Source: Pedobacter aquatilis (GTDB lineage: Bacteria > Bacteroidota > Bacteroidia > Sphingobacteriales > Sphingobacteriaceae). From it: a stretch of 64,000 nt of DNA. The notes under the pieces were generated by a model. It was not told where the DNA came from. It worked only from the letters and a program-made list of their open reading frames with translations, and did no database searches. Position 1 is the stretch's first letter; every line of letters begins with the position of its first letter. The position numbers were made by a program, and so were the translations under genes. The stretch spans positions 124,001 through 188,000 of the forward strand of contig NZ_JAUFPW010000034.1 of NCBI RefSeq assembly GCF_030409415.1. Direction: 5' to 3'. Shown here one piece after another: positions 2,908 through 33,624 of this stretch.

Positions 2908-4416
2908 ATGAATCTACCCAAATACTTGCTGCTAATTATTGCAATTACCTCATCACTATTTATTAATAATTTATCTGCGCAAAATGTTATCAAACCCGTA
3001 ATTTCTGGTGATTTTGCAGATCCATCAATTATTAAAGCAATGGATACATATTTTGCTATTGGTACATCCTCTGAATGGGCACCACATTTTCCAGTTTACG
3101 CATCCAGCGATTTAATGAACTGGAAACAAACCGGATATGTATTTGATAAAGCACCAGAATGGACTTCAGGTTCTTTCTGGGCGCCTGAATATTATTACCA
3201 AAAAGGTACATATTTTATTTATTATACCGCAAGGCGGAAAAAAGATAATATATCATGTATTGGAGTTGCAACTTCAAAATTTCCAGATAAAGGGTTTACA
3301 GACCATGGTGTAATTATAGAACATGGAATGGAAGCGATTGATGGTTTTGTTTTTGTTGATAATGGGATAAAGTATATTACTTACAAAGCTTATGGTCTTG
3401 ATAAAAGACCAATCGAAATTTTAGGTGTTAAATTATCTGATGATGGTCTAAAAATCGAGGGCGAAACATTTTCTATGATGAAAGATGATGCTGGTAAAGG
3501 TTTAGAAGGACAAAGCTTTATGAAGGTTGGCGACTATTATTATATGTTTTACTCTGCCGGAGGATGTTGTGGAATACAATGCGATTATAATGTGGGCGTT
3601 GCCCGTTCAAAATCATTTAAAGGACCATACGAGAAATACACTCAAAATCCAATATTGGCAGAAAATGAATCTTGGAAATGCTCTGGTCATGGTACTTTCG
3701 TTAAAACCGAACAAGGTAAAAATTATTATTTGTACCATGCATATAACAAAGAAACTACAGTTTTTGCTGGCCGGCAAGGTATGCTAGCAGAATTAACATG
3801 GCCAGAAAAAAAAGGCTGGCCAAAGTTTAAAGAAATTTCAGGTTCAAATACTTCAAAAGATGGGTCATTTAATTTTAATGATAAAACACCTGATAAAAGC
3901 TGGCAATGGGATTTTCGAAATTCTATTCCAAAAATTTCACAAGAAAATGGCAAGCTTAATTTGTCTGGGAGTATAGCAGCATCAAATTTAGCAGGAATTG
4001 TTTTAACCATTCGTCCTACATCTGCCATCTTTGAGGCAACAACTACCGTGAGTAATTCAAATAATGCATTAAAAGGCATCAGTTATTACGGAGATGCAGG
4101 TGCGGCAATAGGTGTTGGCATAACTGGCAATCAGGTTCAGTTTTGGAAAGTCCAAAATAAGCAGAAAACAATATTAGCTTCACAAACAATTAATAAAGCA
4201 GAAAATGTTGAGTTAAAATTAAAGGTTGCAACTAATTTAGAAGTCACAACATTTTATAAAGAAGGGCAAGAAGATTGGAAAATCCTTAATTCGGAAGTTA
4301 AAGTAAATGTTAACTTTTTACCACAATGGGATAGAAGTCCACGCATCGGTTTAAATTTTAATGGTAAACCAGAAGAAGTTGCTTCATTCACAAATTTTAA
4401 TCTTAAATATCAGTAG
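2908..4416 (+). CDS. Secreted glycoside hydrolase family 43 (xylosidase/arabinofuranosidase-like)
   Basis: The 502-residue protein has a signal peptide (cleavage likely near NLSA-QN, residue 25) and a GH43 five-bladed propeller to about residue 310. The three expected acids are visible: D38 in DFADPS (general base), D145 in EAIDGFVF (pKa modulator) and E200 in KGLEGQSF (general acid), plus H261 in SGHGTF. The rest (about 320-502) looks like a beta-sandwich accessory domain. It probably cleaves arabinose or xylose side groups in the periplasm or at the surface. GH43 has many specificities, so the exact substrate is open. It stands alone, with no other gene in its transcript that is clearly linked; the 11-bp array lies upstream. 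Confidence 0.88.
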   Translation: MNLPKYLLLIIAITSSLFINNLSAQNVIKPVISGDFADPSIIKAMDTYFAIGTSSEWAPHFPVYASSDLMNWKQTGYVFDKAPEWTSGSFWAPEYYYQKGTYFIYYTARRKKDNISCIGVATSKFPDKGFTDHGVIIEHGMEAIDGFVFVDNGIKYITYKAYGLDKRPIEILGVKLSDDGLKIEGETFSMMKDDAGKGLEGQSFMKVGDYYYMFYSAGGCCGIQCDYNVGVARSKSFKGPYEKYTQNPILAENESWKCSGHGTFVKTEQGKNYYLYHAYNKETTVFAGRQGMLAELTWPEKKGWPKFKEISGSNTSKDGSFNFNDKTPDKSWQWDFRNSIPKISQENGKLNLSGSIAASNLAGIVLTIRPTSAIFEATTTVSNSNNALKGISYYGDAGAAIGVGITGNQVQFWKVQNKQKTILASQTINKAENVELKLKVATNLEVTTFYKEGQEDWKILNSEVKVNVNFLPQWDRSPRIGLNFNGKPEEVASFTNFNLKYQ

Positions 4417-30825: not shown

Positions 30826-30953
30826 CAATTATCAAATTCTTTGGTTTAGCCTGAAACTCAAATGTAGGCAAATTTTAATTATAGCCTTGATGAGTAATAA
30901 GCATTTAAGCAATAAGCTTACCAACTCTATTAATTCTATAAATCAAAATTAAA

Positions 30954-30980
30954 TTTTGCACAAAGATATTTATATTTTTG
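30954..30980 (+). promoter_or_regulatory. Candidate promoter for ddl
   Basis: TTTTG at 30954-30958 and TATTTTTG at 30973-30980 resemble the Bacteroidota boxes, but the spacer is only 14 bp, so this is a weak call. Confidence 0.35.
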
Positions 30981-31024
30981 AGGATATATTTACATCAATT
31001 TCTAATTATTAAAGGATTTTCCAG

Positions 31025-32014
31025 ATGAAAAAAACTATTGCTTTATTAACAGGCGGCACTACAGGCGAATGGGTTGTTTCAGTTAAAAGTGCGGCAACAA
31101 TTGCGCAAAATATTGATGCTGATTTGTATGATGTATATAAAATTATGCTTAATGACAAAGGATGGTTTTATGAGCCTGCAGATTCTGTTAAAATAGAAGT
31201 TGATAAAAATGATTTCTCACTAAACATAGAAGGTAGAAAAATAAAATTTGATGGTGTCTTCATCGCCATTCATGGTTCTCCTGGAGAAGATGGAAAGTTG
31301 CAAGGTTATTTTGATATGCTAAACATTCCCTATACCACTTGTGATGCCTTAACATCATCCATAACAATGAATAAAGGTTATACAAAAGCAATTGTTAATG
31401 GTATTGATGATTTAAATGTTGCAAAATCGGTGCAAATATTTAAAAATGGAAGTTATAATCTCAATCAGATAAAGCAAGATTTAAAATTTCCATATTTTGT
31501 AAAGCCAAATAGTGGTGGCAGTAGTATTGGCATGAGTAAAGTAAAACATGCTGATGATTTAGAAAATGCAGTTGCTAAAGCTTTTAAGGAAGATACACAA
31601 GTGCTTATTGAAGAATTTGTGAGCGGCAGGGAATTTTCTATCGGAGTTTTTGGTGCTGAAGGAAACATTATTGTGCTGCCTACAACAGAAGTTATTCCGG
31701 CTAATGAGTTTTTTGATTTCGAAGCGAAATATACGCCTGGCGCAACCGAAGAAATAACACCGGGTAACATGAGTGAAGAGGAGGTTGATCGTGTAAATCG
31801 TGTTGTAACCGATGTGTATAAAAAATTAAATTGCAGGGGTGTTGTGCGCATCGATTACTTTTTAGAGCATGAAACCGGCAAATTTTATTTTATAGAAATT
31901 AATACCATTCCGGGACAAACCGCAACAAGTTTTATTCCGCAACAAGTTGCAGCCATGGGCATTAGCTTAAAAGAATTTTATACCCGATTAATGAAGGAAA
32001 CGCTTAAAGGTTAA
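31025..32014 (+). CDS. ddl: D-alanine--D-alanine ligase
   Basis: The 329-residue ATP-grasp enzyme shows LLTGGTTGEWVVSVKSA at the start, FIAIHGSPGEDGKLQGYFDMLNIPYT, the ATP lid FPYFVKPNSGGSSIGMSKV, and metal ligands in FYFIEINTIPGQTATS. It makes D-Ala-D-Ala for peptidoglycan. It is divergent from the PASTA-mltG operon and followed after 8 bp by the Crp/Fnr gene. Confidence 0.95.
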   Translation: MKKTIALLTGGTTGEWVVSVKSAATIAQNIDADLYDVYKIMLNDKGWFYEPADSVKIEVDKNDFSLNIEGRKIKFDGVFIAIHGSPGEDGKLQGYFDMLNIPYTTCDALTSSITMNKGYTKAIVNGIDDLNVAKSVQIFKNGSYNLNQIKQDLKFPYFVKPNSGGSSIGMSKVKHADDLENAVAKAFKEDTQVLIEEFVSGREFSIGVFGAEGNIIVLPTTEVIPANEFFDFEAKYTPGATEEITPGNMSEEEVDRVNRVVTDVYKKLNCRGVVRIDYFLEHETGKFYFIEINTIPGQTATSFIPQQVAAMGISLKEFYTRLMKETLKG

Positions 32015-32022
32015 CCAGAAGT

Positions 32023-32604
32023 ATGGATATCCAAAAACTTATTGATATGGGATGTCCGGTGCGGAAATATCCAAAAGATTCGGTTATATATGAACCTGGA
32101 ATGCAACCCAAACATGTCTATTTTGTTAAGATGGGTGAGGTAAGAATGGTTACTGTAAATAATGATGGGAAGGAATTTATACAGGGAATATTTAAATCTG
32201 GGCAGTATTTTGGAGAACCAGCTTTGCTTGTGGATAAACCATACCTGGCATTTACTATTGTTAATAAACCTTCGGAGATTGTAAGCGTTAGCAGGGAAAA
32301 CTACATTAACTTAATAAAAACAGATGCTGAATATAGCATGAGTTTAATCAAGACTTTAAGTAATCGTTTGTTCTATAAATCGATGATGCTGGAGGAACTG
32401 GCAAATGAAAAAGCAGAACATCGTTTGCTAATTATAATCAATTATCTTTTTAATGATCATAAAAAGGGAGAGAGCTTGAATCTAACTCGTCAGGATTTAG
32501 CAGATTTGACAGGCTTAAGAGTTGAAACGGTGATTAGAGAGGTTAAAAATCTGGCAGATAAAAATTTGATAAGCTTAAATCAGGGTAAAATATATAAATT
32601 GTAG
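32023..32604 (+). CDS. Crp/Fnr-family transcriptional regulator
   Basis: The 193-residue protein has an N-terminal cyclic-nucleotide-binding beta-roll (SVIYEPGMQPKHVYFVKMGEVRMV, GQYFGEPALLV), a dimer helix, and a C-terminal winged helix (LTRQDLADLTGLRVETVIREVKNLADKNLISL). The recognition helix reads V-E-T-V-I-R, which is like Fnr (V-E-T-I-S-R) rather than Crp (R-E-T-V-G-R). No cysteine cluster for an Fe-S centre is present (only C11), so it is not an Fnr-type oxygen sensor. It starts 8 bp after ddl. A perfect Fnr-type palindrome lies 8 bp after its stop. Confidence 0.9.
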   Translation: MDIQKLIDMGCPVRKYPKDSVIYEPGMQPKHVYFVKMGEVRMVTVNNDGKEFIQGIFKSGQYFGEPALLVDKPYLAFTIVNKPSEIVSVSRENYINLIKTDAEYSMSLIKTLSNRLFYKSMMLEELANEKAEHRLLIIINYLFNDHKKGESLNLTRQDLADLTGLRVETVIREVKNLADKNLISLNQGKIYKL

Positions 32605-32611
32605 TGTCCAT

Positions 32612-32635
32612 AAAATATGATGTAAATCATATTTT
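32612..32635. promoter_or_regulatory. Perfect Fnr-type palindromic operator upstream of the DUF983 gene
   Basis: Arms AAAATATGAT (32612-32621) and ATCATATTTT (32626-32635) are exact complements around GTAA, containing TGAT-N4-ATCA, which matches the core of the Fnr box TTGAT-N4-ATCAA. The centre lies about 41 bp before the predicted transcription start, the classic place for an activator. Confidence 0.7.
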
Positions 32636-32660
32636 GCCAAATTTTTAGAATGTACCTTTG
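32634..32660 (+). promoter_or_regulatory. Promoter of the DUF983 gene
   Basis: A perfect -7 element TACCTTTG (32653-32660) and TTG at 32634-32636 (16-bp spacer, slightly short). Predicted start is near 32664, with a leader of about 14 nt before the ATG at 32678. The -33 box abuts the palindrome at 32612-32635. Confidence 0.65.
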
Positions 32661-32677
32661 CAGTATAGAAATTAACC

Positions 32678-33088
32678 ATGGCAGAAATAACAAAATTCCA
32701 GGCTGTAATTCAATGTAAATGTCCTAGATGTAGAAAGGGCGATATTTTTACTGGGAATGCTTACGCATTTAAGCTTCAAAAAACTAATATAAATTGTCCT
32801 TATTGCAATTTAAAATTTGAACGCGAACCTGGTTTTTTCTACGTAGCAATGTTTGTGAGCTACGCTATGAATGTAGCAGAAATTATAACAATTGGAGTAG
32901 CATCTTACGTGTTAGGTTTACCACTTATTTACGAAAACTTGTGGTATTATGTTGCTTTGATTTTAGTCGGCGTATTTCTTTTATCCCCAATTAATTATAG
33001 ATATTCAAGAGTAATATTATTGCATTGGCTTACACCGGGCTTAAATTACGTTCCTGGAATAGAAGCACATAAATCAGGCAGTATTTAA
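32678..33088 (+). CDS. DUF983 membrane protein with zinc-ribbon-like head
   Basis: The 136-residue protein has an N-terminal cysteine knuckle (CKCPRCRKG and CPYCNLKFERE, C15/C18 and C40/C43) followed by two hydrophobic segments (FVSYAMNVAEIITIGVASYVLGL and LWYYVALILVGVFLLSP). This is the DUF983 layout; its function is unknown, though in proteobacteria the family often lies near respiratory oxidase genes. The promoter carries an Fnr-type site next to a Crp/Fnr gene. It ends 11 bp from a convergent lipoprotein gene. Confidence 0.88.
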   Translation: MAEITKFQAVIQCKCPRCRKGDIFTGNAYAFKLQKTNINCPYCNLKFEREPGFFYVAMFVSYAMNVAEIITIGVASYVLGLPLIYENLWYYVALILVGVFLLSPINYRYSRVILLHWLTPGLNYVPGIEAHKSGSI

Positions 33089-33099
33089 TAGGATAGGAT

Positions 33100-33624
33100 T
33101 TAATGAATTACGTGTGCAGGGTGTTGTATGTACTCTAATAATTCAACAACTTTTCCTTTAGAAAATTTAACTTTATTGTATAGATAGACCGTATCTATTT
33201 TTCCTTCTTTGGTAATGTTAATTTGTTCGTACCAAAGGTTTACAGATTCTTCTTTGTCATTAATTAATGGTACTACCTCATAAACAGTTATTTTAAAACT
33301 GGTCATTCGGTTAAATTCAAATTCCATTTGCTCTAAAAGATGTTTTTTATGCCCATCAAATCTATAACCATCCAAAAAGAAAATCACAGTATCCGCCATA
33401 TCTACACTCATCATTGCGGTATCTAACCTCTCAAAGCCTTTAAGTAATTTTAACATTTTTATAGAATTGGTGCTGTCTGTACCAACTTGCCAATGTTTAA
33501 TCTGCTTAACTATATATGGAGAACTACTTGTGTCGGGTGATAAGATATCTCTACTTTTCGGTTTGTTGTATTGGCATGCCACTAATAGTGGGATTACACC
33601 AATTAAAATTGATGAATTTTTCAT
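33100..33624 (-). CDS. Lipoprotein of unknown function
   Basis: A 174-residue protein with a type II signal peptide (MKNSSILIGVIPLLVACQ, Cys at residue 17). The mature part has helix-rich stretches (KMLKLLKGFERLDTAMMSVDMADTVIFFLDGYRFDGHKKHLLEQMEFEFNRM) and ends in strands (FKITVYEVV, VNLWYEQINITKEGKIDTVYLYNKVKF). I do not recognise the family. It is monocistronic, convergent with the DUF983 gene. Confidence 0.7.
   Translation of the reverse strand: MKNSSILIGVIPLLVACQYNKPKSRDILSPDTSSSPYIVKQIKHWQVGTDSTNSIKMLKLLKGFERLDTAMMSVDMADTVIFFLDGYRFDGHKKHLLEQMEFEFNRMTSFKITVYEVVPLINDKEESVNLWYEQINITKEGKIDTVYLYNKVKFSKGKVVELLEYIQHPAHVIH

Follow-up and report, generated by a model that had tools for sequence, protein, structure and literature searches.

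The regulator gene and its surroundings

The window, that is, the whole stretch of 64,000 nucleotides of Pedobacter aquatilis DNA that we analysed, contains a gene for a Crp/Fnr-family regulator of 193 amino acids (32023..32604, plus strand), recognised from the list of open reading frames, Pfam and an AlphaFold2 model. Pfam matched the protein to cNMP_binding (PF00027, 66.1 bits) and HTH_Crp_2 (PF13545, 36.8 bits), both above the cut-off, and the model (mean pLDDT 89.9) has E. coli CRP as its closest solved fold. With a sensor fold in its N-terminal part and an HTH_Crp domain in its C-terminal part, the protein belongs to the Crp/Fnr superfamily. The sensor domain is of the cyclic-nucleotide-binding type and spans residues 14–101 (32062..32325, plus strand; Pfam), and the DNA-recognition helix, LRVETVIR, was placed by alignment at residues 165–172 (32515..32538, plus strand). 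V167-E168-x-x-x-R172 of this helix (R-V-E-T-V-I-R) align with R180-E181-x-x-x-R185 of CRP, in agreement with the V-E-x-x-x-R that a preliminary description of this DNA had read there. The same description was right in stating that the regulator lacks Fe-S cysteines, as the only cysteine is C11. Residues R82, S83 and T127 of CRP, which we take to be its cAMP contacts, align with Y74, L75 and K119 of the regulator, the last of which lies outside the sensor domain.

Eight base pairs 5' of the regulator gene ends a gene for a D-alanine--D-alanine ligase (31025..32014, plus strand; NCBIfam equivalog NF002527). A pattern scan located the box TATTTTTG 5' of the ligase (30973..30980, plus strand); apart from the DUF983 box described below, it is the sole TAnnTTTG on the plus strand within 30901–32700, and the ligase and regulator genes may share one transcript. 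Downstream of the regulator lies its proposed target, a gene for a DUF983 protein of 136 amino acids (32678..33088, plus strand; list of open reading frames). The family was assigned through homologues: the window's own protein scores 18.8 bits against Pfam DUF983 (PF06170; cut-off 22.6), and two homologues score 26.4 and 29.5 bits. By eye, the protein has two CxxC pairs followed by hydrophobic stretches, and both cysteine pairs are kept in all 30 aligned DUF983 relatives. According to a passage of PMC4013037, bacterial operons for cytochrome oxidase include DUF983 among their genes, and the protein is compared there to COX4; that it helps to assemble the oxidase is our guess. Convergent with DUF983, a 174-aa open reading frame on the minus strand (33100–33624) looks lipoprotein-like by eye and has no Pfam family.

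Between the regulator and DUF983 genes lies a predicted palindromic operator (32612..32635), which reads AAAATATGAT GTAA ATCATATTTT. It had been described as a perfect 24-bp palindrome; it is indeed present at this position, but it falls short of perfect, since 11 of the 12 pairs (22 of the 24 bases) match. The 10-bp arms and the central T-A are paired, and only 32622/32625 (G/A) are not. Its TGAT-N4-ATCA was correctly read and occupies 32618–32629, and the core that is conserved among relatives, ATGA-N6-TCAT, occupies 32617–32630. The centre of the palindrome (32623.5) had been put about 41 bp before the start of DUF983. This distance holds for the predicted start of transcription and not for that of translation, as the ATG (32678) lies 54 bp downstream of the centre. 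The transcription start is predicted at 32665 (plus strand) from the -7 promoter box TACCTTTG (TAnnTTTG; 32653..32660, plus strand), which keeps its spacing to the operator centre; parts of two papers describe TAnnTTTG boxes at -12 to -5 in promoters of F. psychrophilum (PMC9723704) and F. johnsoniae (PMC6847099). Relative to this predicted start, the palindrome is centred at -41.5.

Taken alone, the palindrome is not beyond chance. A single 24-bp palindrome that matches in 11 or more of its 12 pairs occurs in the window, and one or more such palindromes arise in 18 of 40 dinucleotide shuffles; TGATNNNNATCA occurs four times in the window against 1.72 expected, a count that 8 of 100 shuffles reach. 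This bare core also proved unusable genome-wide, where it gave 145 sites against 40 for the reversed pattern, the expectation being already 1.72 per 64 kb in the window. It is conservation across genomes that carries the case, and we accept the site because it is conserved across loci, a single sequence being no proof in itself.

Conservation of the site and its link to the regulator

We followed the locus in two sets of genomes, whose counts are not to be summed because several loci share species. A family sample of 151 genomes contained nine close copies of the regulator (60–100% identity), all in the window's genus. The ligase lies 5' of all nine and DUF983 3' of eight, the ninth genome having DUF983 on another contig. 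A scan of species genomes added at least 67 further loci (55–82% identity, all but two titled Pedobacter); they are the named loci among the best 80 of 345 relatives, which also comprise 13 distant loci at 38–42% identity. Within these best 80 of 345, DUF983 lies downstream on the same strand in 66 of the 67 named loci. All 66 have the order regulator-site-DUF983, so that the synteny in relatives suggested as a check by the preliminary description is borne out, and the one remaining locus (L137) shows no DUF983 in the stretch examined. In 65 of the 67 (best 80 of 345) the ligase is encoded upstream on the regulator's strand, sometimes about 1 kb away; it appears to be a conserved upstream neighbour, context for the proposed switch rather than a demonstrated member of it.

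The site is found in all 66 two-gene loci (best 80 of 345), in 64 by an intergenic scan and in two from P. cryoconitis (L182 and L188), where the operator lies unaltered within an extended reading frame of the regulator. We looked for relatives that keep both genes and have lost the palindrome, a loss that would speak against the pairing of regulator and site, and found none, as all 66 keep the site. ATGA and TCAT are invariant in the 66 loci, with flanking columns near random (best 80 of 345); the columns next to the core show Y at -8, Y at -3, R at +3, and G at +2 in 57 of the 66. The distance from operator to TAnnTTTG is 29 bp in 55 loci and 30 bp in 11 (best 80 of 345), which places the operator centre, as inferred from box position and not from mapped starts, at -41.5 in 55 and at -42.5 in 11 of the 66. 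Judged from the box, the operator would thus occupy the position of a class II activator (about -41.5). The loci are not independent, because the evidence comes mostly from one genus. That the site is a chance AT-rich palindrome, as the 18 of 40 shuffled windows with one as good might suggest, is refuted by its conservation: the core is invariant at fixed spacing in 66 loci whose flanks have diverged, and the probability that we leave for chance is practically nil.

The regulator is conserved along with its site. LRVETVIR is identical in all 76 DUF983-linked regulators, a set including species common to the family sample and the 67-locus scan (best 80 of 345 relatives), and also in 27 of 31 distant relatives, the other four having a single residue change. 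K119 is invariant in 40 aligned sequences, and H133, M42, M121 and M122 are invariant in 76, which by itself is no proof of haem binding or NO sensing. Cysteines number none in 48, one in 16 and two in 3 of the 67 named orthologues (from the best 80 of 345), so that the four-cysteine set of a [4Fe-4S] cluster was found in none of these 67 loci. The regulator would accordingly be a local, cysteine-independent member of the Crp/Fnr family.

A survey of 145 genomes of the genus examined whether regulator and site occur together, with the regulator called at E <= 1e-40 and a site match at E <= 0.01. The site model (R1) had been built from 59 of the 66 sites, among them sites that share a species, and 40 first-look candidates were scored per genome. 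The regulator was called in 87 of the 145 genomes, and all 87 have a site match, versus 3 of the 58 others. Taken with the site at DUF983 in 66 of 66 loci, these counts argue strongly for the pairing of regulator and site that the preliminary description had proposed. In 85 of the 87 genomes no more than about 250 bp separate the regulator from the match downstream of it. The two exceptions are G150, whose match sits on a different contig, and G167 (L245), where the distance is about 3 kb: a stretch with a DDE transposase gene (Pfam) parts the genes there, and the site stays by DUF983. As for the three matches in genomes without a called regulator, G239 has no site with box, and at DUF983 in G249 (L246) and G234 (L247) operator and box are complete and the ligase is close by, but the gap lacks a regulator gene and neither genome has one at E <= 1e-40; because both assemblies are fragmented, loss, relocation and missing sequence look alike here.

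The parted genes of L245 also bear on whether the palindrome might instead be an RNA hairpin or terminator that ends the regulator gene. The sequence is symmetric, rich in AT and begins 8 bases after the last base of the stop codon, and 73.8% of the cells are paired in its alignment versus at most 50.7% when slid by 1–3 columns, as would be true of any palindrome. The covariation, however, is 0.086 against a shuffle mean of 0.097 (417 of 500 shuffles reach it), each of the four outer pairs fails to form in between 20 and 49 of the 59 sequences, and in L245 the palindrome stays with DUF983 rather than with the regulator gene it would terminate. A hairpin therefore seems to us scarcely credible.

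DUF983 itself is nearly universal, being present in 148 of the 151 family-sample genomes. Of the 30 best DUF983 loci, the 9 from regulator-bearing genomes all have the site, versus 1 of the 21 others (Fisher p 7e-7), and this one, in G135, is a variant, GTGA-N6-TCAC. At the G135 locus (L124; G135:C34, near 9386) the ligase stands directly before DUF983 and the CRP-like GTGA-N6-TCAC lies 28 bp from the box; elsewhere this genome has a nos-cluster regulator with the LRVETVIR helix. An AraC-family gene (the query gene named by Pfam) adjoins DUF983 on the same strand in 19 of the 21 regulator-less loci, upstream in 15 and downstream in 4; of the remaining two, one has the ligase only and one neither. 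DUF983 thus appears mostly to adjoin a regulator, of either of two unrelated kinds (Crp/Fnr or AraC). At four loci with the AraC gene after DUF983 (L072, L078, L079 and L084), ACCAT-like repeats seen by eye in the promoter could be an AraC operator.

The preliminary description had named binding by another Crp/Fnr protein as an outcome that would overturn the pairing. The main candidate is a receiver-Crp/Fnr fusion encoded next to a hemN-like gene (name by eye); the fusion is present in the window's genome and has the helix TASETVSR, whose E-x-x-S-R comes closest to the recognition-helix motif of FNR. All 11 genomes without the regulator in a set of 20 encode the fusion at full length, yet ten of these have no site at their best DUF983 gene and the eleventh, G135, shows only the variant. 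Conversely, it was not found in G035 (a receiver-domain match only), though G035 has the site, and in 87 of 87 genomes with the local regulator a site match accompanies it. In the tree the fusions form a separate clade with 100/100 support, and the other Crp/Fnr-like proteins found in the window's genome have different helices. We consider it highly improbable that one of these proteins, rather than the local regulator, is the one that binds the site.

Distant relatives and the size of the regulon

The same geometry of site and box (ATGAY-N4-RTCAT, TAnnTTTG) recurs in 13 of 31 distant loci, with 14 sites in 142 kb versus none in 20 shuffled sets. In Flavobacterium and its kin the operator precedes the gene for a hydrophobic protein of 93–95 amino acids after the regulator (L200–L203, L206 and L209–L211), without a Pfam family when run for L200. 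Globin genes occur by two of these loci, Bac_globin at L200 and a globin-FAD-NAD (flavohaemoglobin-type) gene at L209. In nos clusters the regulator is followed by a gene for a large membrane protein, with the same operator in front of it. Of the 18 family-sample sister loci, 13 have nosZ no more than 1.5 kb away and three more have it within wider stretches; nosZ also stands beside 4 of 13 far loci. In the tree, the DUF983-linked regulators (32 rows, unity 85/75) are sister to the 31 distant rows (100/98), which are largely nos-linked. The idea that they are nested within an N-oxide branch was dropped, as the tree makes the two groups sisters.

The preliminary description had also suggested a genome scan to define the regulon. 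Such a scan of 20 genomes, with 150 first-look candidates scored in each, gave the DUF983 site as the one strong match in 9 of 9 regulator-bearing genomes (E 1.6e-10 to 4.2e-5), the next separate match across the 20 genomes being at 0.0135. Second sites with full geometry were found in five genomes of the genus (L242–L244 and L248–L249), before a DUF4440 gene in G159, G160 and G264 and an esterase gene in G153 and G245 (one of each run through Pfam). Six second matches were weaker, three being a bare core without an exact box (G238, G164 and G272) and three lacking the full core. G238, a regulator-bearing metagenome assembly, has a nos cluster with a nosZ 73% identical to that of G140; here (G238:C244, L258) the core ATGATCTGAATCAT, centred at 3505, lies between a cytochrome gene and a large membrane gene. 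The near-box TACATTTA follows after 29 bp, and the gap lacks the regulator that relatives carry at this place. This hints that a DUF983-linked regulator can serve N-oxide genes too; the assembly may also be chimeric, or a nos-type regulator may lie elsewhere.

With regard to the window's genome, 15 of 20 listed exact ATGAT-N4-ATCAT sites were examined, and two have a box 29 bp off: that of DUF983 and one at a pyridoxamine-phosphate-oxidase gene (G000:C3:165669; Pfam PNPOx_N). We do not claim the latter as a target, since its site is present in 7 of 9 regulator-bearing genomes and also in the regulator-less G145; it overlaps the start of a divergent AlgH-like gene, with its box just ahead of the ATG, so that coding constraint may explain it. 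Candidates for regulon membership that were likewise rejected are nosZ and ScdA_N (Ric), found in 0 of the 9 regulator-bearing genomes sampled. With respect to autoregulation, 66 of the 67 named loci (best 80 of 345) show no site in as much as 1000 bp of DNA ahead of the regulator, and the site in L151 has no box. The regulon would thus consist of one or two genes, with DUF983 as the only well-supported target in the window's genome and a second target in a few relatives.

At four further loci (L088, L094, L100 and L113), ATTATGA-N6-TCATT and TAnnTTTG stand at the same spacing before a metallo-beta-lactamase-plus-rhodanese gene (Pfam, L113). Since genomes that lack the regulator have this site as well as genomes that bear it, a similar operator may serve a different Crp/Fnr protein there.

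The proposed switch and its relation to known systems

The regulator and the fixed site at the DUF983 promoter very probably form a small switch in soil bacteria of the genus Pedobacter. We put at roughly 0.8 the probability that the regulator is a local class II activator of DUF983, acting via ATGA-N6-TCAT and triggered through its sensor domain. A regulator dimer would bind ATGA-N6-TCAT at 32617–32630, centred at -41.5 of the DUF983 promoter, and would touch RNA polymerase from the class II position, DUF983 being switched on once the sensor domain is triggered. The site, its spacing, the co-occurrence and the invariant helix come from comparison; binding, the dimer and activation over repression are what we infer. 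A class II activator seems most likely because the spacing is fixed and because the unit of regulator, site and target is repeated in distant relatives.

It is also conceivable that the regulator binds the site and represses DUF983 by blocking its promoter until a signal releases it, as the site overlaps the upstream promoter region and could occlude it. Nor does a missing -33 box prove the need for an activator, because promoters of F. johnsoniae show little sign of a -33 element, according to part of PMC6847099. Against repression, the spacing varies by no more than 1 bp around the class II distance in all 66 loci and recurs in distant relatives at other genes; for a repressor we would expect a wider range of positions to be tolerated. 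We therefore regard repression as unlikely and activation from the class II position as the better account.

The preliminary description had proposed a signal other than an oxygen-labile cluster because of the missing cysteines only. Neither an FNR cluster nor cAMP is likely to be the signal, because the four cysteines are absent and the cAMP contacts R82, S83 and T127 are replaced. Kinship suggests nitric oxide, a different N-oxide or low oxygen as our leading guess, since the sister branch, which shares both helix and site, largely adjoins nosZ and in places globin or flavohaemoglobin-type genes; the guess is weakened in that nosZ and ScdA_N were found in 0 of 9 sampled regulator-bearing genomes. 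A wider and rather doubtful idea is that the LRVETVIR regulators might be sensors of gases or N-oxides that make up an undescribed branch in the Bacteroidota and have an operator of their own, ATGAY-N4-RTCAT, typically adjoining a target with the operator at -41.5. Pedobacter DUF983, under that signal, would then be a respiratory-stress or oxidase-assembly factor, and elsewhere the AraC-family neighbour would do the same job.

The proposal gives the DUF983 family a dedicated regulator, promoter and operator, so that the inducing signal could be searched for with a single reporter. It likewise offers an operator for a little-studied Bacteroidota branch of Crp/Fnr proteins, which in other genera adjoins N2O reductase and sometimes globin genes. 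It also brings out that one and the same gene, DUF983, can adjoin either a Crp/Fnr or an AraC regulator, two kinds that are unrelated. A search of open-licence PMC papers for DUF983, Pedobacter and 'Crp Fnr' found none joining any pair of these terms, and such a regulator or operator is not named in the titles and abstract beginnings listed for related open-licence PMC papers.

FNR has a V-E-x-x-x-R helix with a Ser in it, the core TGAT-N4-ATCA and the -41.5 position. The present system resembles it in the helix motif, in the TGAT-N4-ATCA of the window and in the predicted position; it differs in that the regulator has no set of four cysteines and has Ile where FNR has Ser. Instead of the FNR operator TTGAT-N4-ATCAA, all 66 loci have A at -7 and T at +7. 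The label 'Fnr-type' given to the palindrome is thus loose: it suits the TGAT-N4-ATCA in the window but not the conserved core ATGA-N6-TCAT, with its invariant A where FNR has T. CRP is the best match among solved structures in both sequence and fold. However, its R180-E181-R185 helix reads TGTGA, whereas the regulator has V167-E168-R172 and the site has ATGA; R180 is replaced by Val, position -7 of the operator is A and not G, and R82, S83 and T127 are replaced. The receiver-Crp/Fnr fusion is of the same superfamily and genome and differs by its TASETVSR helix, its receiver domain and its separate clade.

DNR likewise has no Fe-S cysteines and acts from the class II place. The DNR/NnrR regulators, which respond to NO and control denitrification in Proteobacteria, resemble the present system in their TGAT-type palindrome, and the regulator's sister branch largely adjoins nosZ. 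In contrast, control of denitrification genes was not seen in the window's own branch (nosZ in 0 of 9 genomes, G238 excepted), and solved DNR matches the regulator less well than CRP does (E 8.3e-9 versus 2.3e-15). The DNR motif given in a section of PMC1274295, TTGATnnnnATCAA, has T where the present operator has an invariant A.

HcpR2 of Bacteroides and relatives comes from the same phylum, is a Crp/Fnr protein and has a tiny regulon like the present regulator; in most Bacteroides it comprises only hcp, according to the same section of PMC1274295. HcpR proteins are recognised there by the motif GTAACnnnnGTTAC or TTGACnnnnGTCAA and an hcp neighbour. The present operator motif differs from these, and no hcp-like gene was seen by eye among the open reading frames at 27–38 kb of the window. 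HcpR2 combines GTAACnnnnGTTAC with Pro at position 181 (PMC1274295, in part), whereas the present system combines ATGAYnnnnRTCAT with Glu. The superfamily itself is very well known, and what would be new is the local variant, a clean small switch.
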